A stretch of DNA of 64,000 bases from Kitasatospora sp. MAP12-44 (lineage in GTDB: Bacteria > Actinomycetota > Actinomycetes > Streptomycetales > Streptomycetaceae): positions 8,556,001 through 8,620,000 of the forward strand of contig NZ_JARZAE010000004.1 in the NCBI RefSeq assembly GCF_029892095.1. Direction: 5' to 3'. A program made the position numbers and the translations under genes. The notes under the pieces are model-generated. The model saw nothing but the letters and a program-made list of their open reading frames with translations, searched no databases and was not told the DNA's origin. Shown piece by piece: positions 48,744-64,000 of the stretch (position 1 is the stretch's first letter; the number at the start of each line of letters is the position of its first letter).

Positions 48744-50450
48744 TCAGGTTCCCGTCGCGCCGGCCGCGGGGCCGGTCCAGAGCGTCCCGTCGGACCAGAT
48801 GTAGTGGGTACCGCCCCACCTGGCCGCCGATGCGACATCGGGGAAGAAGCCGCTGCCATTGAGGTTGGCACTGGTGTTGCACAGCACGGGGATACCGCTG
48901 ATCTCCTCGTAGGCGGTCAGGATCCGGCTGGTCGCCGTGTCCGTCGACGCGTCGATGGTCTGCAGCCGAGCCGTGCCGTCCAGGTGCAGAACGGCTGGAA
49001 TGCGCTCGGTCCAGCCTGCCCGCGTGCGGTGCTCGAAGAGCATGTAGGGGTCGCTGCCACCCGGGGTGAAGACCTCGGCGGCACGCGAGGTCAGGCAGAT
49101 GGGGGCCACCGGCCGGTAGGACGCCCGGTCCTTGATGGCGTTCAGCCGGTCCTTCACGGCGAGGCTGGTCGCCGGCGCCAGAATGCTGCGGTTGCCCAGC
49201 GCCCGCGGTCCGATCTCGGCCCGACCGGACAGCACCACAACGGGTTCGCCCCGGTGGTGCAGGAGTCCCGCCAACTGCCGTTCATCGCAGGGCGTCGGGT
49301 GCCATCCGGCCGGCACATCGCCGACGGCCACCCGCGGACCCGAGTACACGTTCCAGTCCAGGGCGATGCGCTGCTCCCGTCGGAACATCTCGCAGCTGGC
49401 GGTGCCGATGGCCGCTCCCGAGTCGTTGGGGAACGGCGGGATCCAGATCTCCCTGAACAGCCCGCTGCCACGGAGCGCGCTGTTCCACTTGATGTTCAGT
49501 GCGCAGCCACCGCCGAGGACCAGGTTCGGCCTGGACACCCTCGATCCGCGCTGTACCAGCGACCGCATCCGCTCCAGCACGAGGTTCCCCACATACGCCT
49601 GGAAGGTGGCGATGAGGTCCGCGTTGGTCAGCCCGGGGAACAGCTCGTCACGGTTGGCGGCGACCTTCCGGCCGACGTCCTTGGTGTCGTTGGACGGCGC
49701 GTCGCGGAAGTCGGCGAGGATCGTGTCGAACACCGGGAACGCGGACTCCTCCACCTTGCCGAGGGCGGCATAGGCCATGGCCTTCCCGGCAATGGACAGG
49801 TCGCTTCGCATCGCCTCATCGGGGGTGAGGCCGTCCGTGTTCCTGATGAACGGCTCGAACTGCGAGCTGAAATCGGAGAAGGTGCTTCCGGCGAGCGGAA
49901 ACAGCGTGTCCACCCAGGCAACGGTCCGGGTCGCCGCCTCGACGCGGTAGAGGCGTGGTGCCATCCCACCGTCCCAGACCAGCACCAGGGCGTCCTCGCC
50001 GCGGGCCGCGAACGGGCTGGAGCAGTAGGCGCCCAGGAGGTGGTTGCTGACGTGGTGGTAGCTGGCGTAGCCGCTGCCGGGCGCGCCGAAGTCGTGGTCA
50101 CCGAACGTGTGCCGGGCGATGGGATCGCCCACGCCCACCCGATCGTGGTACGGCGCGACCGTGAGCTCCAGCGGGCGGCCACCGCTCAGCGTGCGGATGC
50201 GGGACGGCTCCGTGGACACGACCTGCTCGGAGTCGTCCCCCGTGAACCAGCCGTCGACGACGAACTGATCGACGTCGGCCGGTTCCAAGCCCTCCGACCG
50301 CAGGATCTCGGTCACCCGCTCAAGATCTCCGAGAGAGCTGTACCGCTCCCCGTTCCCGAGCTTCTCGACCTCGGTGCTGAAGCGAAGCTGACCGTCCTCG
50401 ATGACGGCGACCCCGCCGTCATGAGTGACTTTGATTCCACAGATCAACAT
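48744..50450 (-). CDS. O-carbamoyltransferase (NodU/CmcH/TobZ family)
   Basis: 568 residues, full length. The N-terminal Kae1-like part has ICGIKVTHDGGVAVIEDG, GYASYHHVSNHLLGAYCSS with the metal-binding His pair, and VLVWDGGMAP. The later part has NLVLGGGCALNIKWNS, RAEIGPRALGNRSILA and PVLCNTSANLNG, all diagnostic for carbamoyltransferases that use carbamoyl phosphate and ATP via carbamoyl-adenylate. It would install a carbamoyl ester on a sugar hydroxyl of the product. It leads an operon with SDR, DUF1349 and an unknown gene, starting from the divergent promoter at 50451-50629. Confidence 0.93.
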   Translation of the reverse strand: MLICGIKVTHDGGVAVIEDGQLRFSTEVEKLGNGERYSSLGDLERVTEILRSEGLEPADVDQFVVDGWFTGDDSEQVVSTEPSRIRTLSGGRPLELTVAPYHDRVGVGDPIARHTFGDHDFGAPGSGYASYHHVSNHLLGAYCSSPFAARGEDALVLVWDGGMAPRLYRVEAATRTVAWVDTLFPLAGSTFSDFSSQFEPFIRNTDGLTPDEAMRSDLSIAGKAMAYAALGKVEESAFPVFDTILADFRDAPSNDTKDVGRKVAANRDELFPGLTNADLIATFQAYVGNLVLERMRSLVQRGSRVSRPNLVLGGGCALNIKWNSALRGSGLFREIWIPPFPNDSGAAIGTASCEMFRREQRIALDWNVYSGPRVAVGDVPAGWHPTPCDERQLAGLLHHRGEPVVVLSGRAEIGPRALGNRSILAPATSLAVKDRLNAIKDRASYRPVAPICLTSRAAEVFTPGGSDPYMLFEHRTRAGWTERIPAVLHLDGTARLQTIDASTDTATSRILTAYEEISGIPVLCNTSANLNGSGFFPDVASAARWGGTHYIWSDGTLWTGPAAGATGT

Positions 50451-50506: not shown

Positions 50507-50569
50507 CACATCACCCGGTCGGGTACAGGAGCTCACCCGGTGCGGGGACTGCACACCCGGGTGATGTGG
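50507..50569. promoter_or_regulatory. inverted pair of ACATCACCC motifs in a divergent promoter
   Basis: CACATCACCCGGTCGGGTA at 50507-50525 is identical to 57889-57907. A second copy lies inverted at 50557-50569 (CCGGGTGATGTGG), so CCACATCACCCGG forms a wide dyad centred between the carbamoyltransferase and GH13 starts. It is a strong candidate operator/activator site. Confidence 0.7.
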
Positions 50570-50629
50570 CGACGCATCGGGGCGATCAGCATCGGGGCGG
50601 GCGCAGGCGACAAGCGAAGGAGCCGGACC

Positions 50630-52267
50630 GTGGGCCAGTGGTGGCGTGACGCCGTCTGCTACGAGCTGTATCCGAGGTCGTTCGCGGACGGCGACGGCGA
50701 CGGGACCGGGGATCTGAAGGGTGCCGCGGCCGGGCTCGACCATGTAGCGGAGCTCGGAGCGGATGCGGTGTGGATCACCCCCTTCTACCCGTCACCGCTG
50801 GCGGACGGCGGCTACGACATCAGCGACCACACCGAGGTCGCACCCGAGTTGGGCACCCTGCAGGACTGGCACGCCCTGGTCGACCGGGCCCACACCCTGG
50901 GGCTGCGCGTGCTGGTCGACCTGGTGCCCAACCACACCTCGGTGGCGCACCCTTGGTTCCGCCAGGCCCTCTGCGCGCCGGCCGGCGCCCCGGCGCGGGA
51001 CCGGTACGTCTTCCGGCCGGGACGGGGTCCGGGAGGGCAGGACGCGCCCAACGACTGGCAGTCGGCCTTCGGGGGCCCGGCCTGGAGCCGGGTGCCAGGA
51101 GACGACATGGGCCCCGCCCAGTGGTACCTCCATCTGCACACCCCGGACCAGCCCGACCTGAACTGGCGCAGCCCCGAGGTGGTCGCCGAGTACGAACGCA
51201 TCCTGCGGTTCTGGCTCGACCACGGCGCCGACGGCTTTCGGGTGGATGTCGCCCACACGCTGTTCAAGGCCGCGGACCTGCCCGATGCCGGGCCCGGGCA
51301 GCACCAGGAGCCGGACCGCTACCACCTCATGCCCTACTACGACCGTGCGGAGGTGCATCCGCTCTACCGCCGGTGGCGGGCCCTGCTGGCGGACCACCCG
51401 GCGCCGGACGTCGAGGCGCCACCGGGCGAGAGACTGCTCGTCGGCGAAGTCATCCTGTTCGACCAGGAACGGCTGGCCCGCTACGTACGCCGAGGGGAGC
51501 TGCAGCACGTCTTCAACTTCGCCTACGCGCAGTGCCCTTGGGAGGGACGGGAGCTGCGTCGGGTGATCGGGGAGTCGGTTGCCGCGACCGCGGCCGTGCA
51601 GGCCCCGGCGACCTGGCTGCTGTCCAGCCATGACGCCGTCCGCCCGGTCACCCGCCTCGGCGGCGGTCCTGCCGGGCTGCGGCGCGCCCGGGCGGCGGCC
51701 CTGCTGACCCTGGCGCTGCCGGGGGCGGTCTACATCTACCAGGGCGAGGAACTCGGCCTGCCGCAGGCGTATGTGCCCGAGGACCGGCGCCGGGACCCGC
51801 TGTGGGAACTGTCAGGACGCACCGACCCGGGCCGCGACGGCTGCCGCGTACCGATTCCCTGGACGGGGGAGGAGGCGCCGTACGGCTTCAGCGCCGCGCC
51901 GCCCGAGGACTGCTGGCTTCCGCAGCCGGCCGACTGGTCCTCGCTCACCGTTCGGGCCCAACAGGCCGACGCAGACTCCACCCTGACGCTGTACCGGACC
52001 GCGCTGCGGCTGCGGCGCGCGTACCCCGCCGGCACCGACGGCTGCCGCCTGGATGGTCCCGACTCCGGTGAATGGCTGGGTTTTCACCGGGGCCGGGACC
52101 TGCGCTGCCTGGTCAACTTCGGTCCTGGCGGGCTGCGGCTCGACCCGGACGACGAGATCCTGCTGGCCAGCGCGCCCGTCACCGCAGGGGTACTGCCCCC
52201 CGACACCACCGTCTGGCTGCGCCCGGCTACGGCTCAGCGCCCGCTCGGCCCGGAGTCCAGGGAGTAG
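50630..52267 (+). CDS. GH13 alpha-glucosidase-type glycoside hydrolase
   Basis: 545 residues from the GTG at 50630 (AAGGAG seven bases upstream); the open frame before it crosses the promoter dyad. WWRDAVCYELYPRSFADGDGDGTGDLKG and AVWITPFYPSP are typical of alpha-glucosidase/oligo-1,6-glucosidase. Catalytic residues are all present: DLVPNHTS, GFRVDVAH (nucleophile Asp), LLVGEV (acid/base Glu) and SSHDAVRP (stabilising Asp). No signal peptide, so cytoplasmic. Alongside a cluster glycosyltransferase it may remove a protective glucose from the product, or provide glucose. Its end overlaps the convergent GT gene by 34 bases. Confidence 0.9.
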   Translation: MGQWWRDAVCYELYPRSFADGDGDGTGDLKGAAAGLDHVAELGADAVWITPFYPSPLADGGYDISDHTEVAPELGTLQDWHALVDRAHTLGLRVLVDLVPNHTSVAHPWFRQALCAPAGAPARDRYVFRPGRGPGGQDAPNDWQSAFGGPAWSRVPGDDMGPAQWYLHLHTPDQPDLNWRSPEVVAEYERILRFWLDHGADGFRVDVAHTLFKAADLPDAGPGQHQEPDRYHLMPYYDRAEVHPLYRRWRALLADHPAPDVEAPPGERLLVGEVILFDQERLARYVRRGELQHVFNFAYAQCPWEGRELRRVIGESVAATAAVQAPATWLLSSHDAVRPVTRLGGGPAGLRRARAAALLTLALPGAVYIYQGEELGLPQAYVPEDRRRDPLWELSGRTDPGRDGCRVPIPWTGEEAPYGFSAAPPEDCWLPQPADWSSLTVRAQQADADSTLTLYRTALRLRRAYPAGTDGCRLDGPDSGEWLGFHRGRDLRCLVNFGPGGLRLDPDDEILLASAPVTAGVLPPDTTVWLRPATAQRPLGPESRE

Positions 52268-53592
52268 GTCAACGGGGGGACAGCCAGCGCGTCCACGAGC
52301 GCGGGGAGCGCACGGTAGTCGGCGAGGCTGCGCCCCGGGCGGGTGGCGATGGCGCGCAACTCGGGCCGGGGGAGCCCGGTGGCGTGCTCGCTGGCGGCGA
52401 TCCGGGCGAGCAGCGCTTGGTCACGGCGCTGGAAGTACTCCAGGAAGACCTGCTCGGTCTCGGCCAGCAGCCGCTCATGGCCGCCGCCGGGCCGCCTTCG
52501 CACCCGGACCCGGCCGACCGTGGCACTGTCGTGGCGCAGCCTGGCCGACGGGAGCTCGCCGGCCATGGCGCGCCACAGCGTCTCGTCCTCGAACGGCGCG
52601 GTGCTGTCCGGCAGTCGGGCCGGCTCGTAGTCGCGTTCCAGCAGCCGGGCCACGAGCACGTCCTCGTCGACCACCCCCAGCGGTCCGATCCTGTCCATCC
52701 CGAACACGGTCTCGGTGTGCAGCGTGGTGGGCACCAGGTTGCGGGCGGGCAGCAGCTCGACGGCCGGTCCCATGTCCGCGGCCAGGACCGGGATCCCATG
52801 GGCGAGGGCCTCGACCACCACTCGGCCGAGGCTCTCCCGGGAGGCGGTGCTGGGGAACAGCAGCACGTCGATCCGGGAGAGGAAGTCGGTCAGCTCCGAG
52901 GGGTGGAGCAGCCCGAGCGGGGTGACGGCCTCGGAGGGAACACCCTCGGACGCCAGCCGGGCGAGGATCGTCCCGGTCTCCCAGCGCGGGTGGTTGGGCT
53001 TGCCCGCGAAGACGAGTTCGGCCCGCCCTCCGGACTCCCGGTGGTACCGCTGGAACACCCCGAGCACCTGGTCGAAGTTCTTCGCCTCCGACAGCGCACC
53101 GAGGTAGCCGATCCGCAGGGGCGCGCCCGGCGGTGGGACCGGTGCCTGCGCGGCGTGCGGGATCCGCGCCAGCATCGGGTACGCCACCGCGGAGTTGCCA
53201 GGACCGGTACCCGGGAACTCGCGCAGGAAGACCTGCCGGGTGAACTCGCTCGGGAACAGGACCACGTCGCCGGGGCGGGTGAGCGGAGCGCACAGCTCCT
53301 CCTGGGTCCAGTAACCGGACCAGAAAGTGGTGTGCACCTCCCGGACGATCCGGAAGTCGGTGCCGTGCTGCTCCCGCCACAGGTGGTAGAGGTGCGCGTA
53401 CGGGCCGTTCCCGGCGTAGACCACGTCCCCGTCCCCGACGTTCGCCAGGCAGTCGCGGCCGGCCGTCTGATCGTGCAGGACGACGTCAGCACGGGCCGAC
53501 AGCAGCTGCGCCATCTGCTGGTGCATCAGCACGGCACCGTCCAGGATTCCGGAGAGGTTCACCGCCGTGTAGTCATGTACGTGCAATCGCAT
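52234..53592 (-). CDS. GT4-type glycosyltransferase
   Basis: 452 residues. The N-terminal half lacks a signal peptide and holds VHDYTAVNLSGILDGAVLMHQQM and DVVLFPSEFTRQVFLREFPG. The C-terminal GT-B half has LRIGYLGALSEAKNFDQVLGVF, ELVFAGKPNH and the nucleotide-sugar motif SRESLGRVVVEALAHGIPVLAADMGPAVELLP (E-x7-E). It is a retaining family 4 enzyme that would add a sugar to the cluster's product or intermediate. It is the last gene of the operon kinase-aminotransferase-transketolase-GT and overlaps the transketolase stop by 20 bases. Confidence 0.9.
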   Translation of the reverse strand: MRLHVHDYTAVNLSGILDGAVLMHQQMAQLLSARADVVLHDQTAGRDCLANVGDGDVVYAGNGPYAHLYHLWREQHGTDFRIVREVHTTFWSGYWTQEELCAPLTRPGDVVLFPSEFTRQVFLREFPGTGPGNSAVAYPMLARIPHAAQAPVPPPGAPLRIGYLGALSEAKNFDQVLGVFQRYHRESGGRAELVFAGKPNHPRWETGTILARLASEGVPSEAVTPLGLLHPSELTDFLSRIDVLLFPSTASRESLGRVVVEALAHGIPVLAADMGPAVELLPARNLVPTTLHTETVFGMDRIGPLGVVDEDVLVARLLERDYEPARLPDSTAPFEDETLWRAMAGELPSARLRHDSATVGRVRVRRRPGGGHERLLAETEQVFLEYFQRRDQALLARIAASEHATGLPRPELRAIATRPGRSLADYRALPALVDALAVPPLTYSLDSGPSGR

Positions 53593-55342
53593 AGTGCGCC
53601 TCCTGGCTGTTGCGGAACGACATCAGCAGGTCGCGCAGCTGTGCGGGGCTCATGCCGTGCCGCTGGAGCTGGATGTCGTGGACGCAGTTGTCGATGTCCG
53701 CCTCGACGCCGTGCACCGCGACCGGCAGCAGGTAGCGGTTGCGCAGCCACTCGCCGAACCCACCGTGCACGCCGTTGTACTCGACCGACAGGACGTGCCG
53801 GAACCGGGCCAGCCGCTCCACAACCTCCTGCCGGAGCACCGGGTTGAGCGCGGCGCAGTGCAGGTGGGGGATCCCCAGCGAGGCGTTCGCCCGGGCCAGC
53901 AGGGTGCTGGCGTAGCCGAAGCTGACCACCGCCAGGTCGCAGTCGCCGGCCTCGGGGGCGTTGAGCCACACCCCGTCGTCGATGTCCGCGGAGCAGTCCG
54001 CGGGCGGTTCGTCGAACCGGGCGTCGACCATGCTCAGCACGTGGACCGTTGAGGGTTCGCCCTCCAGCCGGTCCGTGCACGCCTGGAACTCCGCGGGCGT
54101 GATCGGCTCGTACACGCGGGTGTTGGCGATCAGTGCGAGCAGGTTGAAGGCGTTCGCCGAGCCGCCCCAGGCCCCCCAGTTGCGGCCCGCCAGCACCAGC
54201 AGGTTGCGTACGCTGGTCGACGCCTCGGTGAGCATGCTGAGCGAGTCCATGTAGTACATCGCGTCCGTGGCGACGACCTTCAGGTGCTCCGGCGGCAGGG
54301 ACAGCGTCAGCCCGATGCCGAGGCTCTCGGCGAGCCCGACGTTCTGGTACGGCACCTGTCCTGACAGTCCGAACCTGGCCGCCAGATCCGCGGTGAAGAC
54401 CGCGAGTTCGCGCCCCGACCGGCGCTGGAGCTCCGCGAGCCGCCGGCCGCCGGTGGAGGCGAAGGTCGGCCGGGCCGGAGCGGATCCGGTGCTCGGACGC
54501 CGGTAGCTGTGGCCGTCCTTGCGGGTGCGGCAGACCAGGGCGGTCGGGCCCGGAGTCGCGAGCAGCTCCGCCAGGGCGGCCTGGACCGCGGCAGAGTCCC
54601 TGCCGTCGACCTCCACCACGGAGCGGAAGTAGCTGCGCAGGTAGTCCCGGTTGAGCGGCTTGAGCAGCGGCTCGATCCCCATGTCATTGGCGTCGACCAC
54701 CATGATGAGGTTGCCGAGTTCGGCCTCGTCGGTGAAGCGGATGCACTCGAAGGTCACGCCCTCGTGCAGCTCGCCGTCGCCGGCCAGGCACACGACCTTG
54801 CGCTCGTCGCCCTGGCGCTTCAACTCCCATGCCAGGCTGACAGCCTGAGCGACACCGACACCGAGGCTGTAGCGCATGGTGTTGCGGAACCCCCAGTCCT
54901 GGTTGACCACACCGGTCATCCCGCCCTGGTGCAGTGTGGCCAGGGGCAGGAACGGCAGGTCGCCGCGGACGTACTGCTCGGCGTAGAAGCTGGGCGCGAT
55001 GTGGCCGCGGCCGACGATCAGGTCGGCCGGCGCGCGCGTACCGGCCGGGGGGATCAGACCCAGCTCGAAGCAGGCGCGTACGGTCGGGAGGGAGGACAGG
55101 CAGCTCTGGTGGTTGCCGGAGCCGGCGATCTCGTGCATCCGCAGCAGGACCTCGGCGCTGTCCCGGTACAGGCGCTCCGGCACGGCCGCCGCTATCTGCC
55201 GCATCGTCGCCAGCAGCCCGTCGCGCAGTCCGAGCCGGCGCAGCTGCGACAGCTCGCGCTGGACGGCAGCGTTCTCCTCGGGGGTCAGCTGCGGCGCGGA
55301 GGTGGCGACGGCCCGCTCGAAGTCCGCTGGCTGAGCGCCCAT
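53573..55342 (-). CDS. transketolase-like enzyme (single chain)
   Basis: 589 residues from the ATG at 55342, which overlaps the aminotransferase stop; a longer ORF extends upstream but is antisense noise in another gene's frame. Thiamine diphosphate motifs are clear: GRGHIAPSFYAEQ, VVCLAGDGELHEGVTFE ... VDANDMGIEP, and in the second domain NVGLAESLGIGLTL with the Glu that activates the cofactor. NWGAWGGSANAFNLL and VLSVEYNGVHGGFGEWL follow. It is shorter than housekeeping transketolases (about 660). It may move a two-carbon ketol or act on a pyruvate-like donor to build an unusual sugar chain. Confidence 0.88.
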   Translation of the reverse strand: MGAQPADFERAVATSAPQLTPEENAAVQRELSQLRRLGLRDGLLATMRQIAAAVPERLYRDSAEVLLRMHEIAGSGNHQSCLSSLPTVRACFELGLIPPAGTRAPADLIVGRGHIAPSFYAEQYVRGDLPFLPLATLHQGGMTGVVNQDWGFRNTMRYSLGVGVAQAVSLAWELKRQGDERKVVCLAGDGELHEGVTFECIRFTDEAELGNLIMVVDANDMGIEPLLKPLNRDYLRSYFRSVVEVDGRDSAAVQAALAELLATPGPTALVCRTRKDGHSYRRPSTGSAPARPTFASTGGRRLAELQRRSGRELAVFTADLAARFGLSGQVPYQNVGLAESLGIGLTLSLPPEHLKVVATDAMYYMDSLSMLTEASTSVRNLLVLAGRNWGAWGGSANAFNLLALIANTRVYEPITPAEFQACTDRLEGEPSTVHVLSMVDARFDEPPADCSADIDDGVWLNAPEAGDCDLAVVSFGYASTLLARANASLGIPHLHCAALNPVLRQEVVERLARFRHVLSVEYNGVHGGFGEWLRNRYLLPVAVHGVEADIDNCVHDIQLQRHGMSPAQLRDLLMSFRNSQEAHYAIART

Positions 55343-56670
55343 CAGCGGGTCCCGTGGGTCTCGTCGAGCGCCTCGGCGAGGGTGCGGCAGATGCTCTGGA
55401 CATCCTCTTCGGTGGTGACGAACGCCGGCGCGAGCACGATCCAGTCGTCCTGGCCGCGGATGATGAGCCCCCGCCGCAGACATGCCCGGGCCACCTGCTC
55501 GCCGAGGCTGCCGTCGACGACGTCCCCGGGCGTGGACAGCTTGACGCCGTAGAGGAGCCCCAGCGCTCGGACGTTCCCGCGGCTCCCCACCGCCTCCCGC
55601 AGCGCCGACTCGAAGCGCTCGGCGAGCTCGGCGATCCGCTTGGGGTACTCGTCCCCGGTGAACAGCCGCACCGCCGCGAGGCCGGCCGCCGAGGCCATCG
55701 GATTGGCCGCATAGGTGTGCGAGGGCGCGAAGGAGACGGGCCCGGAGCCGTCGCCGAGAACGGCGCTGATCCGCTCGTGGATCAGCACTGCGGCCAGCGG
55801 CGCGTACCCGCCGGAGATGCCCTTGCCCACGCACATCAGGTCCGGTGTGACCCCGAACGTCTGCGCGGCGAACGGCAGGCCGGTACGCCCGAACCCGGTG
55901 ACGATCTCGTCGAAGACCAGCAGGATGCCGTGCCGGTCGCAGATCTCCCGCAGCCTGGCCAGGTAGCCCTGCGGGGCGACGGCCATGCCACGGAGGTGGA
56001 TCACCGGCTCCACGATGATCGCGGCGAACGAGTCCGGGCCCTCCGCCTCGATGGTGCGTTCGATCAGCTCCGCGGCGAGCCGGCCCGACTCCTCCGCGGG
56101 GACGCCGAGGAAGTCCTCCAGGGCGTCGGGCGACCAGACGTGCACGGCGCCGGGCAGGCCAGGACCGAAGCGGCTGACGTCGGGACGGCCGGTCACCGAG
56201 AGCGAGCCGAAGGTGGCGCCGTGGTAGCCGTGGAAGTAGCTGATGGTCTTGTAGCGCCCGCTGTCGCCGGTCTCGCGGTGGTACAGCCGGGACAGCCGGA
56301 GCGCGGCCTCCACCGCCTCCGAGCCGCCGTTGACCAGCTTGGCGCTGACGATCCCGGGCGGTGCGAGCCCGACGAGTGCCTCGGCGAGTGCCAGGGCGTT
56401 CTGGTTGGTCCCGTGCAGCGGCGGATTGAACGCCATCCGGCCGAGCTGCGCGGCCACCGCGCTCCGGATCGGCTCGCAGTCGTATCCGAAGCAGGTCACG
56501 AAGACACCGGACATGGCGTCGAGGTAGCCGCGTCCCGCGGTGTCGAACAGCCTGATGCCCGAGGCGCGTTCGAAGAGGATGGAGTCCTCGGAGTAGGGCA
56601 CCTCGAAGCAGAAGGAGGAGAGGTCGGCGGGGGCGGGCCAGTTCGGAGTGCCAGGCGCTTCAGTGGTCAT
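55342..56670 (-). CDS. class III PLP-dependent aminotransferase
   Basis: 442 residues. SGIRLFDTAGRGYLDAMSGVFVTCFGY, VNGGSEAVEAALRLSR, YFHGYHGATFGSLSVTG, GILLVFDEIVTGFGRTG (PLP-binding Asp) and DLMCVGKGISGGYAPLAAVL with the Schiff-base Lys are in family order. Such enzymes aminate ketones or aldehydes, including sugar and aminocyclitol ketones. In this operon it would use a ketone made by the redox enzymes or the transketolase product. It overlaps the transketolase start by 1 base and follows the kinase by 2. Confidence 0.92.
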   Translation of the reverse strand: MTTEAPGTPNWPAPADLSSFCFEVPYSEDSILFERASGIRLFDTAGRGYLDAMSGVFVTCFGYDCEPIRSAVAAQLGRMAFNPPLHGTNQNALALAEALVGLAPPGIVSAKLVNGGSEAVEAALRLSRLYHRETGDSGRYKTISYFHGYHGATFGSLSVTGRPDVSRFGPGLPGAVHVWSPDALEDFLGVPAEESGRLAAELIERTIEAEGPDSFAAIIVEPVIHLRGMAVAPQGYLARLREICDRHGILLVFDEIVTGFGRTGLPFAAQTFGVTPDLMCVGKGISGGYAPLAAVLIHERISAVLGDGSGPVSFAPSHTYAANPMASAAGLAAVRLFTGDEYPKRIAELAERFESALREAVGSRGNVRALGLLYGVKLSTPGDVVDGSLGEQVARACLRRGLIIRGQDDWIVLAPAFVTTEEDVQSICRTLAEALDETHGTR

Positions 56671-56672
56671 CT

Positions 56673-57794
56673 TCAGTCCTCGGGAAGTTCGGTCTCGTCT
56701 GGGAAAGTGCTGGAAAGAAGCCGGTGCAGCGCGAGTCGGCGGCGGGTGTCGAGCAGTTCCAGGTAGCCGGTCCAGGCCGGACTCAGAAGGTCCCGTTCGA
56801 GGATGTCCTTGGCGATGTCCACGACCACGGGCACGGCCCGGGCGATGAGCAGTGGCATCAGCAGCCGCTCCTCGCCGGGGGCCAGCAGGCCCTGGCCCAC
56901 AGCGCGGGAGCGGAAGGCGCTCAGCGCGGCCTGGCGGGCCCCGGCTCCGCCCCGCACCCGGGCCGAGGTCTCGACGACCCAGGCGAGGTCCAGCAGCCGG
57001 TCTCCCACCGTCAGATTGTCGAAGTCGAGCACAGCGGCAACCTCGGGCCGACCGCCGGCGCCGAAGAGGAAGTGGTGGTGGTGCAGGTCGCCGTGGATCA
57101 CCCGTAGCCGCTCCGCAGGCACCTCCATCAGGGACGGGCGGGCCGCCAGCAGCAGGGGACGGGCGTCCGAGAGACCCTCCAGCGCCTCGACGGCGACCCT
57201 TCCCCAGGAGTCGTCACGTGACCGCGCCGACGGCAGCAGGCGGTCCACGCCGTCGTCGAGGGCGCGGAGCCAGTCCGCCTCGTCGACGAGGGCGGGCAGC
57301 CCGATCGACGCCAACTGCGCCACCTGCTCCGGCGGAAGGCCGTCCAGTACCGCGCGCAGTCCGAGGCCGGTGGTGATGACGGCGCGGGCCTGCGCGGCCG
57401 TGCTGTGCGCCGATGCCGTTCCGGCCACCAGCGGGATGAGCTCGCAGACATGTCCGTCCCGCCAGGCCGCGGGTTCACCGGCGGTGGTCGGCACAGCGAG
57501 GGGCACCGGAACGCCGACCTGGAGGCAGCGTTGGAGTATCCGCTGCTTGAGCGGGTAGAAGCGGGCGTCGCGGACGGCATCGGTGTTCAGCTGGACCTTG
57601 AACACATGGTCACGCCCACCGTGCACGGTCCGCCACAGAGCCGCCGTGTGACTGAGCGGCGCCTCTCCGCCGTTGGTCAGCGGAACCGGTCGGCTGCTTT
57701 CCCGGCGCACACCCCAGTGCGTGGAAAGAACATCATCAACCCATTCGATCGAGCCTGCCGTGACAGTGGGCCGGCGGGAATGATGATCCGTCAT
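56673..57794 (-). CDS. aminoglycoside phosphotransferase-family kinase
   Basis: 373 residues from the ATG at 57794 (GAGGG eight bases upstream); an in-frame ATG at 57812 lacks a ribosome site. The kinase fold reads HVFKVQLN, LPPEQVAQLA, then RLRVIHGDLHHHHFLFG with the catalytic Asp and AAVLDFDNLTVGDRLLDLAW with the metal-binding Asp. It could be a biosynthetic sugar kinase or a self-resistance kinase that phosphorylates the product. As first gene of the minus operon from the motif-bearing promoter it would be co-induced with the aminotransferase, transketolase and GT. Confidence 0.87.
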   Translation of the reverse strand: MTDHHSRRPTVTAGSIEWVDDVLSTHWGVRRESSRPVPLTNGGEAPLSHTAALWRTVHGGRDHVFKVQLNTDAVRDARFYPLKQRILQRCLQVGVPVPLAVPTTAGEPAAWRDGHVCELIPLVAGTASAHSTAAQARAVITTGLGLRAVLDGLPPEQVAQLASIGLPALVDEADWLRALDDGVDRLLPSARSRDDSWGRVAVEALEGLSDARPLLLAARPSLMEVPAERLRVIHGDLHHHHFLFGAGGRPEVAAVLDFDNLTVGDRLLDLAWVVETSARVRGGAGARQAALSAFRSRAVGQGLLAPGEERLLMPLLIARAVPVVVDIAKDILERDLLSPAWTGYLELLDTRRRLALHRLLSSTFPDETELPED

Positions 57795-57888
57795 TTCCTT
57801 TGCCCTCGCCATTCATCGCGTGATAGTCCGGCCGAGTCATTCCTTGTCCGTTGCGTGCATAAGATGCTCGACCCGGTCAGGGTGGCGG

Positions 57889-57907: not shown

Positions 57908-58112
57908 GCCGGCGGTTCGTGTGCGGAGGCAGCCGATGGCTGCCCGCCAGGGGGATGTGCGCGAGACCGCGGGGGTGTGAGTATGGGCGACCGAGCGGCG
58001 GAGACCGTGCGGGATGTGCGCGTCGGAAAGCAGCCGGGGCGGATTCGCCGAGGCGGATATTCGACCACGACGGGATTTCCAGAGGCACTCGTCGTCGAAC
58101 CGGAGGTAGCGA

Positions 58113-59927
58113 ATGTCCGGAATCACTGGCTGGGTGGACAGCGTCCGTGATCTGCGTGACGCGGACGCGGCTACCGCCCGGCTGACAGCCGACCTGGTGG
58201 CCCGCGGAGGGTCCGGCACAGGGATGTGGCACAGCCGGCACGCCGTGCTGGCCCAGCGCGTCGACGCGGCGTGGACCGGCAGCAGGGAACCCGCCTGTGT
58301 ACGGCAGGACGGTCGTCCGGCCGCGGTCGCGGTCTGCGACGGATACCTGCACAACGCACGGGAGTTGTGGTCGGCCGTCGGGCCCGGGGAGACCGCCGCA
58401 CCGGAGGGGCCCTCGGTGGCCGAGGTGGTGCTGCACGCCTATCTGCGGTGGGGAGCGGCGGCCGCGCAGCGGCTGGAGGGCTCTTTCGCCTTCGCCGTCT
58501 GGGACGCCCGCGGCCGGGAGCTGGTGCTGGGCCGCGACCGGTTCGGCGTGAAGCCGCTGAGCTACCTACCCACCGAGCACGGCGCGGTGTTCTCCTCGGA
58601 CGTGGCCGCCCTGGCCGCGCACCCCCTGGCGGCTCCCGAGATCGACGCGGAGGGGCTGTGCGCCCTGCTGACCCAGCTCCGGAGTCCGGGGCGCGGAACG
58701 TTGCGCGGCATGCGCGAGGTGCCGCCGGGCCATACCGTGCACCTGACCCCCGAGGGGGAGACCAGCCGCCGGTACTGGGTCCTGGAGGCCCGGCCGCATG
58801 AGCTGGACCTGGCGCAGACGATCCAGCAGGTGCGCGGTCTGCTCGACGACGCCGTGGCCGGAGAGTTGCACGGCACCGAGCCGGCGGTGCTGCTGTCCGG
58901 AGGCTTGGACTCCAGTGTGCTGACCGGACTGGCCGCCAGCGCCTCCGGTACCGCCCCGCGCACCTTCACCGTCGCGTTCGGTGACACGGCCGCGGCAGTC
59001 CCGGACCGGCCGTTCGCCCAGGACGTCGTGCGGTTCTGGAACTGCCGGCACGAGGAGGTCACCGTCCGTCCCGAGGAGCTGTCCGATCCGGTGACGCTGG
59101 CCACCGTGCTGGCGGCCAAGGACTATCCCTCGCCTTTCGGGGACAAGAACATCACACCCTTCCTGTTCAGCCGACGGGTGGCCGGACATGTCCCGGTGGC
59201 CCTGAGCGGCGAGGCGGCGGACACCGTGTTCGGCAGTATGGGCGGCCGTATCGACGATGACCGCGAGTTCACCGCGTTCCCCTGGATCGAGCGCACCCGC
59301 ACCTGGGGACTGGAGCACGGCATCGGCACCGCGCTGTTCGACGCGGAACTGCTGCGCGGCGTGGACGTCGGGGGCTACTGCGACCGACTGTTCCGGGAGG
59401 CGAGCGCGGAGGTGCCGCAGCTGCCCGGGGATTCCCGGCAGGACCGGTTGGGCCGGCAGTCGGACTACCTGATCACGACCCGGCTCCTGGAGCAGGCGGC
59501 CCACCACTCCGAGCGGCTGGGCGCCACCGCCGGACTGCAGGTGCGCTTCCCCTTCTTGGACCACCGGCTGGTCAGCTTCCTCTACAACGTTCCGGTGCAC
59601 ATGAAGTGGTTCGACGGCCGGGGCAAGAGCCTGTTGCGCACCATCGCCAAGGACCTCGTGCCGGAGTCGGTTCTCACCCGGGCCAAGGTGCCCTATCCGA
59701 TCACCTATGCCGACAGCTACAAGTCGGCGCTGGTGCAGCGGTTGCAGACGCTGCTGGACGACTCGACGGCTCCGGTCCGTCCGCTGATCGACGTCGCCGG
59801 GGTGCGGCAGGTCGTGGCCGACCCGGCCCTGCTGGACCGGGGCGGGTGGTACGGCCGGGCGAACGTGGAGATGGTCCTGCAAGTGGATGCCTGGCTGCGC
59901 CGGCTGCGCGTGCGCGTCAGCATCTGA
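58113..59927 (+). CDS. asparagine-synthetase-like amide ligase with a degenerate glutaminase domain
   Basis: 604 residues; GGAGG lies six bases before the ATG. The product begins MSGITGWVD: the Cys that must follow the start Met in AsnB (MCGITG) is Ser, codon TCC. The glutamine-binding NGEIYN region is VCDGYLHN. Both changes predict loss of glutaminase activity. The C-terminal half is a proper synthetase: VLLSGGLDSSVLTGLA (PP-loop), FTVAFGD, VALSGEAADTVFGSMGG and VRFPFLDHRLV. It therefore probably adenylates a carboxylate and joins it to an amine other than glutamine-derived ammonia, as beta-lactam synthetase and some antibiotic ligases do. It leads the NRPS operon. Confidence 0.9.
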   Translation: MSGITGWVDSVRDLRDADAATARLTADLVARGGSGTGMWHSRHAVLAQRVDAAWTGSREPACVRQDGRPAAVAVCDGYLHNARELWSAVGPGETAAPEGPSVAEVVLHAYLRWGAAAAQRLEGSFAFAVWDARGRELVLGRDRFGVKPLSYLPTEHGAVFSSDVAALAAHPLAAPEIDAEGLCALLTQLRSPGRGTLRGMREVPPGHTVHLTPEGETSRRYWVLEARPHELDLAQTIQQVRGLLDDAVAGELHGTEPAVLLSGGLDSSVLTGLAASASGTAPRTFTVAFGDTAAAVPDRPFAQDVVRFWNCRHEEVTVRPEELSDPVTLATVLAAKDYPSPFGDKNITPFLFSRRVAGHVPVALSGEAADTVFGSMGGRIDDDREFTAFPWIERTRTWGLEHGIGTALFDAELLRGVDVGGYCDRLFREASAEVPQLPGDSRQDRLGRQSDYLITTRLLEQAAHHSERLGATAGLQVRFPFLDHRLVSFLYNVPVHMKWFDGRGKSLLRTIAKDLVPESVLTRAKVPYPITYADSYKSALVQRLQTLLDDSTAPVRPLIDVAGVRQVVADPALLDRGGWYGRANVEMVLQVDAWLRRLRVRVSI

Positions 59928-59950: not shown

Positions 59951-61468
<1,518 letters not shown>

Positions 61469-61499: not shown

Positions 61500-64000
61500 A
61501 TGGGCACGCCGCAGCAGGGCATCCCGCTGTCCGTCGGCCAGGAGGCGATGTGGATCGCCTGGGAACTCGAACCCGACCAGATGAGCCATATCATCCCCCT
61601 GGCGTTCCTGGTGCGCGGGGAGCTGGACGTGCCGCGGCTGCGGCAGGCCGTGGCCGCCGTGGGAGAGGCGTACCCCCAGTTGCGGGCCCGGGTCGCCCGG
61701 GCCCACGACGGCCCCGTGGTGAGCTGGGCGCAGGCGCCCGAGATCCCGGTGATCGAGCGGACCGTGACGGCCGACGTGATGGAGGCGGCGCGGGAGGCGT
61801 GGCAGGTGCCGATCGACCTCCGTTCGGGGCCGCTGGCACGGGTGTACGTGCTGCGGGGGCCGGACTGGACGGCGCTCCTGTTCGTCGTCCACCACCTGGT
61901 GTTCGACGGCGCTTCCGTCCTGATCATGCTGGACGGGCTCCGGCGGGCCTATGCCGGTGAGGCACTGCGCCCGTCCGACCATCTCGACACACTGACCTCG
62001 TTCGCCCGCCGGTCCCGGGAGCTCGCGGACACCGAGGCCGGAGACGCGCACCGCGCCTACTGGAAGCGGGCACTGGGCTCCGGCACCCCAGGTCTCGCCC
62101 TGCCGTCCAACCCTGGCCCGGAGCCTCGGCGCACCATGTTCAGCGCTGACGTTCCTCCCGAACTCGCGGACCATCTCCGGTCCTGCGCGGAGGAGTTGGG
62201 GTGCTCCTACTTCACCGTGCTGCTCGGTGCCTACTTCGCGTTGCTTCGGCGGCACAGCGGCCTGGACGACCTCATGGTGTCCATCCCGTTCCACGGCCGG
62301 ACCGACCCCTCACTCCGGGACACGGTCGGCTACTTCGTCAACCCGCTGCCGATCCGGCACCGGCTCCGAGCCACCGACAGCTATGCGGAGCTGATACGCG
62401 CGCTGCGGTCCGCGGTCAAGGAGTCCCTGAGCCACGGCGAGCTTCCGCTTCCCGCCATCATGCGCGAGGCGGGTTTCACCGGTCCGCAGGCCCGCGCCCA
62501 CACCCATCAGTCCCTGTTCCAGTACTGGCACGCGGGACAGCGCGCCGACGTCGATGTGCAGAACCTCGAACTGCGCTCCGGTGGCACCTCCTGCACGCTG
62601 AGCATGCTCGACGTGGAGAGCACCGCCGGGTACACGCTCGCGGTGATGGTCAGGGAGGACACCGGCGGTACCCATGTGCTGTGGAAGGACCCCACGGGCG
62701 CGGTCGGCCCGGCCGCCGTGGCGGACCTGGCCGAGGACTACCTGGCGATCCTGAAGACCATCGCGGCCGATCCCCGGACGACCCTCGCCCCGGTCCTCGG
62801 GCACGTCGCCAGGCCGACGATGGCCCCCCAGCCGGCCCCCCAGCCGGCCGTCGTGCCGGCCGTCGTACCGACCGATAGGCCGGATGGGGCCGGGTCCGGT
62901 GGGCTGGCCGAGATGGCGGCGGTGTGGGAGGAGGTACTGGGTTTCGAGGGGATCGGCCCCGAGGATTCGTTCTTCGAGCTGGGCGGGCATTCGCTGCTGG
63001 CCGAGGCGCTGACGCTACAGGCGGGAAAGCATTTCGGGGTGGAGGTTCCGATCCGGGTGCTGTTCACCTTCCCCCGGTTGCGCGACTTCACGGACCAGGT
63101 CCTGGCGACGGTCGGCCCGACCGCTGAGGTGACCGGTCCGGACGCCGCCGTCGCGCCGGACGGCGCGGAGGTCCCCGCGAGCAACTTCCAGCAGCGGATC
63201 TGGCTGATCGAACAGTCCGACGAGTCCGCGCGCGGAAACGTCTGCCTGGCGTGGAAGACCTCCGGCGTGCTGGAGCCGGACCTGCTGGGCAAGGCGCTGG
63301 CGATGCTGGTGGAGAGCCATGAAATCCTGCGCACCCGGTTCGTCGAGCGCGACGGCGCGCTCGTGCAGCAGGTGGGAGAGCCGTGGCAGCCGCAGATCGA
63401 GCAACTCGACCTGCGGGGCACCGCGAGCCCTGACGACGGCATCACCGCCTGGCTGACGGACGCCGCGACGCGCAGGTTCGATCCGGAGTCCGGTCGGCTC
63501 CTGCGGGTGGCCGTCGCCGACCTCGGCGCCGGGCGCCGGGCCCTGCTGGTCTGCGTGCACCATCTGGTGATCGACGGTGAGTCGATCCCCATCCTGCTCG
63601 CCGAGTTGGAGCGGTGCCATGCGGCTGCCCGGCAAGGACGGGCGGCCGGACCCGCAGCCGTTCAGTACCGGGAGTTCGTCGCCGCGCAGCAGGCCGAGAA
63701 GACGGACGGGACCTGGGCCGCGGACCTACGGTACTGGGCCGACGCACTGTCCGGTGCCCCGGCGTATGTGGACGTCCCTACGTCTGCCACGCCGCAGGAG
63801 GAGGGGTCGGTGGCCATGGCGACCGGCGGGGGACTGCTCGGCCGACTGCAGCCGGTCCAGGCCGAACTCGGCGTCTCCTGGTTCATCGTCGCGGCGACCG
63901 CACTGGCGGTCGTGTTCCACCGATGGAGCGGCGAGAGCGACATCACCTTCGAGGTCCCGATCGCCTCCCGCGGCCGGAACCAGGGCCGGTTCGCCGACGT
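61500..64000 (+). CDS. NRPS with C-PCP-C organisation (3' end outside window)
   Basis: At least 833 residues from the ATG at 61500 (AAGGAGAG upstream); an in-frame ATG at 61461 overlaps the previous stop and is an alternative. The first condensation domain has HHLVFDG with His131, His132 and Asp136, all intact. A Pro/Ala linker leads to a carrier domain FFELGGHSLL with phosphopantetheine Ser498. A second condensation domain starts about residue 550 and has HHLVIDG at residues 687-693. The frame stays open to base 64000. With the separate A protein it would make at least one amide bond. No A domain is in the visible part. Confidence 0.93.
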   Translation, partial: MGTPQQGIPLSVGQEAMWIAWELEPDQMSHIIPLAFLVRGELDVPRLRQAVAAVGEAYPQLRARVARAHDGPVVSWAQAPEIPVIERTVTADVMEAAREAWQVPIDLRSGPLARVYVLRGPDWTALLFVVHHLVFDGASVLIMLDGLRRAYAGEALRPSDHLDTLTSFARRSRELADTEAGDAHRAYWKRALGSGTPGLALPSNPGPEPRRTMFSADVPPELADHLRSCAEELGCSYFTVLLGAYFALLRRHSGLDDLMVSIPFHGRTDPSLRDTVGYFVNPLPIRHRLRATDSYAELIRALRSAVKESLSHGELPLPAIMREAGFTGPQARAHTHQSLFQYWHAGQRADVDVQNLELRSGGTSCTLSMLDVESTAGYTLAVMVREDTGGTHVLWKDPTGAVGPAAVADLAEDYLAILKTIAADPRTTLAPVLGHVARPTMAPQPAPQPAVVPAVVPTDRPDGAGSGGLAEMAAVWEEVLGFEGIGPEDSFFELGGHSLLAEALTLQAGKHFGVEVPIRVLFTFPRLRDFTDQVLATVGPTAEVTGPDAAVAPDGAEVPASNFQQRIWLIEQSDESARGNVCLAWKTSGVLEPDLLGKALAMLVESHEILRTRFVERDGALVQQVGEPWQPQIEQLDLRGTASPDDGITAWLTDAATRRFDPESGRLLRVAVADLGAGRRALLVCVHHLVIDGESIPILLAELERCHAAARQGRAAGPAAVQYREFVAAQQAEKTDGTWAADLRYWADALSGAPAYVDVPTSATPQEEGSVAMATGGGLLGRLQPVQAELGVSWFIVAATALAVVFHRWSGESDITFEVPIASRGRNQGRFAD

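Follow-up and report, generated by a model that had tools for sequence, protein, structure and literature searches.

A Cys-less asparagine synthetase-like protein and its association with a threonine-type NRPS unit in Kitasatospora sp. MAP12-44

Introduction

What does an asparagine synthetase (AsnB)-like protein do in an NRPS gene cluster once the catalytic Cys of its glutaminase domain is gone? Enzymes of the AsnB fold adenylate a carboxylate, and a nucleophile then attacks the adenylate. In this work, we examined such a gene in the window, the 64,000-nucleotide stretch of Kitasatospora sp. MAP12-44 that was analyzed, and asked which nucleophile its product may use and at which step of the pathway. 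The features of the gene are as follows:

58113-59927, + strand: AsnB-like ligase gene with a dead glutaminase domain, 604 aa, starting MSGITG (open reading frame, Pfam, NCBIfam, and structure search)
58102-58109, + strand: ribosome-binding site GGAGG (58102-58106) and in-frame TAG (58107-58109), fixing the start codon
58116-58118, + strand: Ser2 codon TCC, where the catalytic Cys would be
58338-58355, + strand: DGYLHN (aa 76-81), replacing the glutamine-site motif NGE.YN
58896-58916, + strand: intact PP-loop SGGLDSS (aa 262-268)
59205-59225, + strand: SGEAADT (aa 365-371), with Glu367 kept and Thr371 replacing the second Glu (E. coli AsnB E352)

Results and Discussion

Start codon and domain assignment

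An earlier sequence-only reading had described the MSGITG start, CDGYLHN at the NGEIYN site, and an intact SGGLDSS, all of which are confirmed in the open reading frame at 58113-59927. An upstream start that would give back the Cys, and so overturn that reading, was looked for and is impossible because the in-frame TAG at 58107-58109 lies two codons upstream of the ATG at 58113. Sequencing error is also ruled out as the source of Ser2, as the nearest homologue, which is 76% identical and belongs to another genus, has the same ATG-TCC (Ser) start. This shared start and the 17-member clade described below indicate that Ser2 is not a chance replacement.

The protein matches the Pfam families GATase_7, GATase_6, and Asn_synthase, with an E-value of 3e-60 for its synthetase domain (PF00733). 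Among NCBIfam models, its score for TIGR01536 (AsnB) is borderline, just below the curated cut-off (266.6 against 267.1 bits). It also falls below the curated cut-offs for the lasso peptide cyclases (NF033535; 160.8 against 525 bits) and the albusnodin/ikarugamycin family macrolactam cyclases (NF033561; 89 against 300 bits). At the equivalents of AsnB Arg49, NGE, and Asp98, it has Val50, DGY, and Val102, which do not make up a glutamine site. Housekeeping asparagine synthesis is an unlikely function, given that three other AsnB paralogues in this genome (L001-L003) start with MCG.

Distribution of the Cys-less clade and loss of the glutaminase site

Homologues were drawn from public genomes, and a tree was inferred from the synthetase domain alone with a quick search. 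In this tree, 17 AsnB-like proteins, including the window ligase, form one Cys-less clade (SH-aLRT 99). Cys2 is present in the other 56 full-length homologues; the sole exception is a Cys-less paralogue from the window's own genome (L004), which places outside the clade. At position 2, 16 clade members have Ser and the remaining one has Gly; a further fragmented relative (L015) has Ala. The Cys-bearing homologues have invariant Cys2, Arg50, and Asp102 (56/56 each) and a nearly invariant Glu78 (55/56). None of the 17 clade members retains Cys2 or Arg50; Glu78 is missing from 16 of them and Asp102 from ten, with seven still carrying it. The window ligase has lost all four. That glutamine can no longer be hydrolyzed, as the sequence-only reading proposed, is thus strongly supported: the clade as a whole lacks the nucleophile and most residues of the glutamine site, and the rates below point the same way.

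The ratio of N-terminal to synthetase domain rates is 1.71 within the clade and 0.96 in the Cys-bearing homologues, which gives a ratio of about 1.8 between the two (1.29-2.20 in 25 column bootstraps). These rates indicate that constraint on the dead N-terminal domain is relaxed within the clade. Meanwhile, dN/dS values of 0.16-0.44 in both domains (four close pairs) show that the ligase is maintained as a whole protein. A decaying or non-catalytic paralogue, retained as a partner protein of the NRPS, would fit the fast evolution of the N-terminal domain and the Ser found at the otherwise conserved Lys525 in G059. However, these dN/dS values, an ATP site that is invariant throughout the clade, and neighboring genes that are retained across a deep divergence make this explanation highly improbable.

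Several members differ from the general pattern. The activity of the G059 ligase (L128, L096) may differ because of its Ser at position 525. The ligase and adjoining NRPS genes of Streptomyces sp. P3 (L015:10001-16291) are split into several frames, which represent either assembly frameshifts or a decaying cluster, and the ligase start there reads (V)AAITG. The second Cys-less protein of the window's genome (L004, also L130:9058-10887; G000:C4, ~6619 kb) starts with MSGIAG, is located in a type II polyketide cluster, and differs from the main clade in that Arg50 and the second SGExxDE Glu are both still present.

Changes in the synthetase half

Within the clade, the PP-loop residues, D370, R478, and R523 are invariant, and the ATP site of the ligase is, as judged from these residues, intact. 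Where the glutaminase site is lost, this half also shows three changes. All 56 Cys-bearing homologues keep the second Glu of SGExxDE and all 17 clade members lack it, while R465 is changed to His and D467 to Glu in 16 of the 17. At the E352 place, alignments show Glu in AsnB and in TsnB9, the trichostatin A hydroxyamidotransferase, Ile in beta-lactam synthetase (BLS), and Leu in carbapenam synthetase (CarA). In BLS and CarA, the nucleophile is the substrate's own amine. The Cys-bearing relatives sit in clusters of differing kinds and probably handle various acids, yet all keep the second Glu. A new acid would thus explain its loss less well than a new nucleophile would, and we infer that the nucleophile may have changed. 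The alignments with AsnB and BLS that the sequence-only reading had called for gave a split answer: the second Glu is lost as in BLS and CarA, whereas Glu367, the equivalent of AsnB Glu348, is kept as in AsnB and aligns with a Tyr in BLS and CarA. By that mark, the window ligase is not a beta-lactam synthetase.

These residues bear on two alternatives. The first is an intramolecular cyclase, in which an amine or hydroxyl elsewhere in the molecule attacks the adenylated carboxylate to form a lactam or lactone, as in BLS. The missing Cys, the replacement of E352 by a hydrophobic or small residue, as in BLS and CarA, the rank of BLS as second match for the stretch from the PP-loop to SGE, and the occurrence of AsnB-like RubR/GrhP in rubromycin-type clusters (PMC5765640) are all consistent with it. 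Against it stand Glu367 in place of the catalytic Tyr and the finding that TsnB9 is nearest in overall fold and sequence. No CarA_N domain was matched in Pfam either, and a search with PF09147 (CarA_N) for beta-lactam synthetase relatives gave no match, although this result does not show their absence. Taken together, we consider a cyclase improbable.

The second alternative is a primary-amide synthetase that draws on free ammonia or on the output of a separate glutaminase acting in trans, with the dead domain as a mere scaffold. The retained Glu367 agrees with this, as does the ability of AsnB-type enzymes such as PesC to accept free ammonia (PMC13060819). However, the second Glu that every Cys-bearing homologue has is lost in the whole clade, and no glutaminase domain was found among the Pfam matches of the other genes of the ligase's own cluster. 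We regard this alternative as rather unlikely.

Gene neighborhood of the window ligase

The genes around the ligase are as follows:

59951-61468, + strand: stand-alone adenylation protein with a threonine-like code, DFWSIGTVFK, 23 bases downstream of the ligase
61500-64000, + strand: NRPS protein C1-T1-C2, extending beyond the window end to 64460 (L008)
36209-57812, no strand assigned: rest of the conserved cluster, comprising phosphatase-like, ferritin-like, LuxR-type regulator, cyclitol/sugar-type oxidoreductases, xylose-isomerase-like, GH13 alpha-amylase-like, glycosyltransferase, transketolase-like, class III aminotransferase, and APH-like kinase

The specificity code of the adenylation protein was read through a motif alignment; its homologues have DFWNIGTVFK, and the threonine code is DFWNIGMVHK. 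Sugar- or cyclitol-type genes occupy 36209-57812. Nearly the entire cluster is common to a second genus (G095) at 43-86%, where a myo-inositol-1-phosphate synthase gene is additionally found. The NodU-type carbamoyltransferase at 48744-50450 has no counterpart in this otherwise syntenic cluster.

A cassette of ligase, adenylation protein, and C1-T1 unit

Most NRPS-linked clade members have as neighbors a stand-alone adenylation protein of the threonine type and an NRPS with a C1-T1 unit. At least one of the adenylation and C1-T1 genes adjoins the ligase gene in the window, in L015, and in eleven further loci (G095 twice, G314, G275, G053, G062, G068, G177, G131, G250, and G127). Neither G127 nor G250 has a stand-alone adenylation gene at the ligase locus; genome-wide searches for one found nothing in G127, and in G250 a frame of 6680 aa contains a 45% match. 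G019 and G059 have the ligase at one locus and an A/C1-T1 pair at another. Among 80 homologue loci, C1-T1 homologues were found solely beside the two Cys-less ones (L011 and L015) and beside no Cys-bearing homologue. Type II PKS clusters contain other members of the Cys-less clade as well as sister sequences that have the Cys.

The sequence-only reading had offered an amino sugar as one possible amine. We found no tie to it: the same cassette occurs in clusters without the sugar-type genes of the window, and those at 50540-57812 are common to just one other ligase-bearing locus, which speaks against amino-sugar specificity.

Four other ligase-bearing clusters, G053 (L121), G062 (L122, L132), G127 (L157-L158), and G250 (L161-L162), encode an acyl-CoA dehydrogenase together with a PKS protein of the KS type, plus a P450 in three cases. 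They resemble epoxyketone-type NRPS-PKS clusters, for which acyl-CoA dehydrogenase is a marker (PMC8988807). In three clusters, the gene immediately preceding that of the ligase encodes a protein weakly similar to SAM hydroxide adenosyltransferases, members of the SAM-dependent halogenase superfamily (L011:9408-9998, L015:9337-9966, and L153:12774-13559).

The C1 domains form a tight family, with 356-608 bits to the window C1 and at most 87 bits to other C domains, and C2 varies from cluster to cluster. In the C1 tree, the 11 ligase-bearing loci fall into a single group (92/94), inside which G290, the one member lacking a ligase, is also nested. Another group (94/85) consists of ten ligase-free loci that belong to a different conserved NRPS family. 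This grouping suggests that the ligase is tied to one C1 lineage, yet C1-T1 can function without it; the ten ligase-free loci and G290 rule out a strict dependence of C1-T1 on the ligase.

The ligase-free family (L179:3-12009; L173-L178, L180-L184) recurs in many Streptomycetaceae genomes and comprises KS-ACP, C-A-T, TE, MbtH, Thr-type A, C1-T1-C2, and an F420-type LLM oxidoreductase; it has the A and C1-T1 genes in common with the ligase clusters, but not the ligase. G290 (L172:553-15165) is an epoxyketone-like cluster with a C1 of the ligase-linked lineage and without the ligase. It instead has a prephenate-dehydrogenase-like gene, an aminotransferase gene, and a separate A-domain protein.

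Proposed role of the ligase

Our preferred explanation, to which we give a probability of roughly 0.55, is that the protein is an ATP-dependent, glutamine-independent ligase of the AsnB fold tied to the start of the threonine module. Its synthetase half would adenylate a carboxylic acid of the pathway. The nucleophile that then attacks to form an amide would not be ammonia released from glutamine; an amine carried by one of the pathway's substrates is the likeliest candidate. The partners of the ligase would be the products of the next genes downstream, the Thr-type adenylation protein and the C1-T1 unit. It most likely prepares an acyl group that C1 would join to the T1-bound threonine-like residue. 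The model for this acyl-donor role is ActJ/MatC, for which action on an acyl-CoA starter has been proposed (PMC5719088); that C1-T1 also occurs in G290 and in other clusters with no ligase weakens the case for the role. A ligase acting after chain assembly is a rival to this placement.

The choice between ammonia and a pathway amine, as posed by the sequence-only reading, was the right pair of options. Co-evolution with the Thr-type NRPS unit and the loss of the second Glu make us lean toward a nucleophile other than ammonia. Four points count against the preferred explanation: Glu367 is kept as in ammonia users and not replaced by the Tyr of BLS and CarA, AsnB-type enzymes without glutaminase action can use free ammonia (PesC, PMC13060819), the ligase and A/C1-T1 are at separate loci in G019 and G059, and seven clade members retain Asp102. 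Only tentatively do we suggest the broader proposal that the clade may represent a new functional class: glutamine- and ammonia-independent AsnB-fold amide ligases dedicated to an unusual acyl or aminoacyl cap, with the conserved C1 attaching this cap to a threonine-like residue in a number of NRPS pathways that otherwise differ.

If the proposal is true, the absence of Cys2, of Arg50, and of the second Glu in SGExxDE would serve as a signature of glutamine-independent AsnB-fold ligases, and the cassette would link them to a defined NRPS unit, making them easy to find and test. An unusual cap would be predicted in epoxyketone-type and cyclitol-type clusters, and the ligase could supply an ATP-dependent amide ligase for biocatalysis. 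The clade and its Cys-bearing sisters provide a natural series for asking how an ammonia-channeling enzyme becomes an amine ligase.

Comparison with known systems

An AlphaFold2 model of the ligase (mean pLDDT 90.7) gave Z-scores of 45.1 to TsnB9 (PDB 7ylz; 567 residues), 32.8 to E. coli AsnB, 31.1 to beta-lactam synthetase, and 25.8 to CarA. TsnB9 is the nearest solved relative by sequence (E 9e-93) as well as by fold, with the same two-domain AsnB architecture. However, TsnB9 has MCG, the Arg, Glu, and Asp, and SGExxDE, whereas all four glutamine-site residues are replaced in the window ligase. Its hydroxylamine source is a glutamyl hydroxamate from TsnB6/7 (PMC13418202). No such pair is annotated in the window cluster, and no AurF-type match was found among the Pfam results for the cluster, in which some genes are assigned to no family.

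ActJ and MatC, of the actinonin and matlystatin pathways, are likewise AsnB-like enzymes in NRPS/PKS clusters. On the MatC side, the homologue in the published matlystatin genome of A. atramentaria DSM 43919 (L025) starts with MCG, unlike the window ligase. The AsnB-like amide synthetases of the XanA/RubR/GrhP type belong to type II polyketide clusters, whereas the window ligase belongs to an NRPS cluster. PdmN of the pradimicin pathway is an amino acid ligase for D-Ala/D-Ser (PMC10951976).

AsnB has its domain order, PP-loop, and Glu348 equivalent in common with the window ligase, but also has the catalytic Cys, the glutamine-site residues, and E352, which the window ligase lacks, with Thr at the E352 place. 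A literature search covering mostly open-access papers returned no published description of an NRPS-linked Cys-less AsnB clade. AsnB-fold enzymes without glutaminase activity are already known, namely, beta-lactam synthetase and CarA. Both are like the window ligase in fold, in the absence of the catalytic Cys, and in the absence of Glu at the E352 place; they differ in their low identity to it (19-23%) and in having a catalytic Tyr (BLS Tyr348, TGY.xD motif) where it has Glu367. The kind of enzyme is thus not new; what appears to be new, as defined by sequence, is an NRPS-linked Cys-less clade that can be tested.
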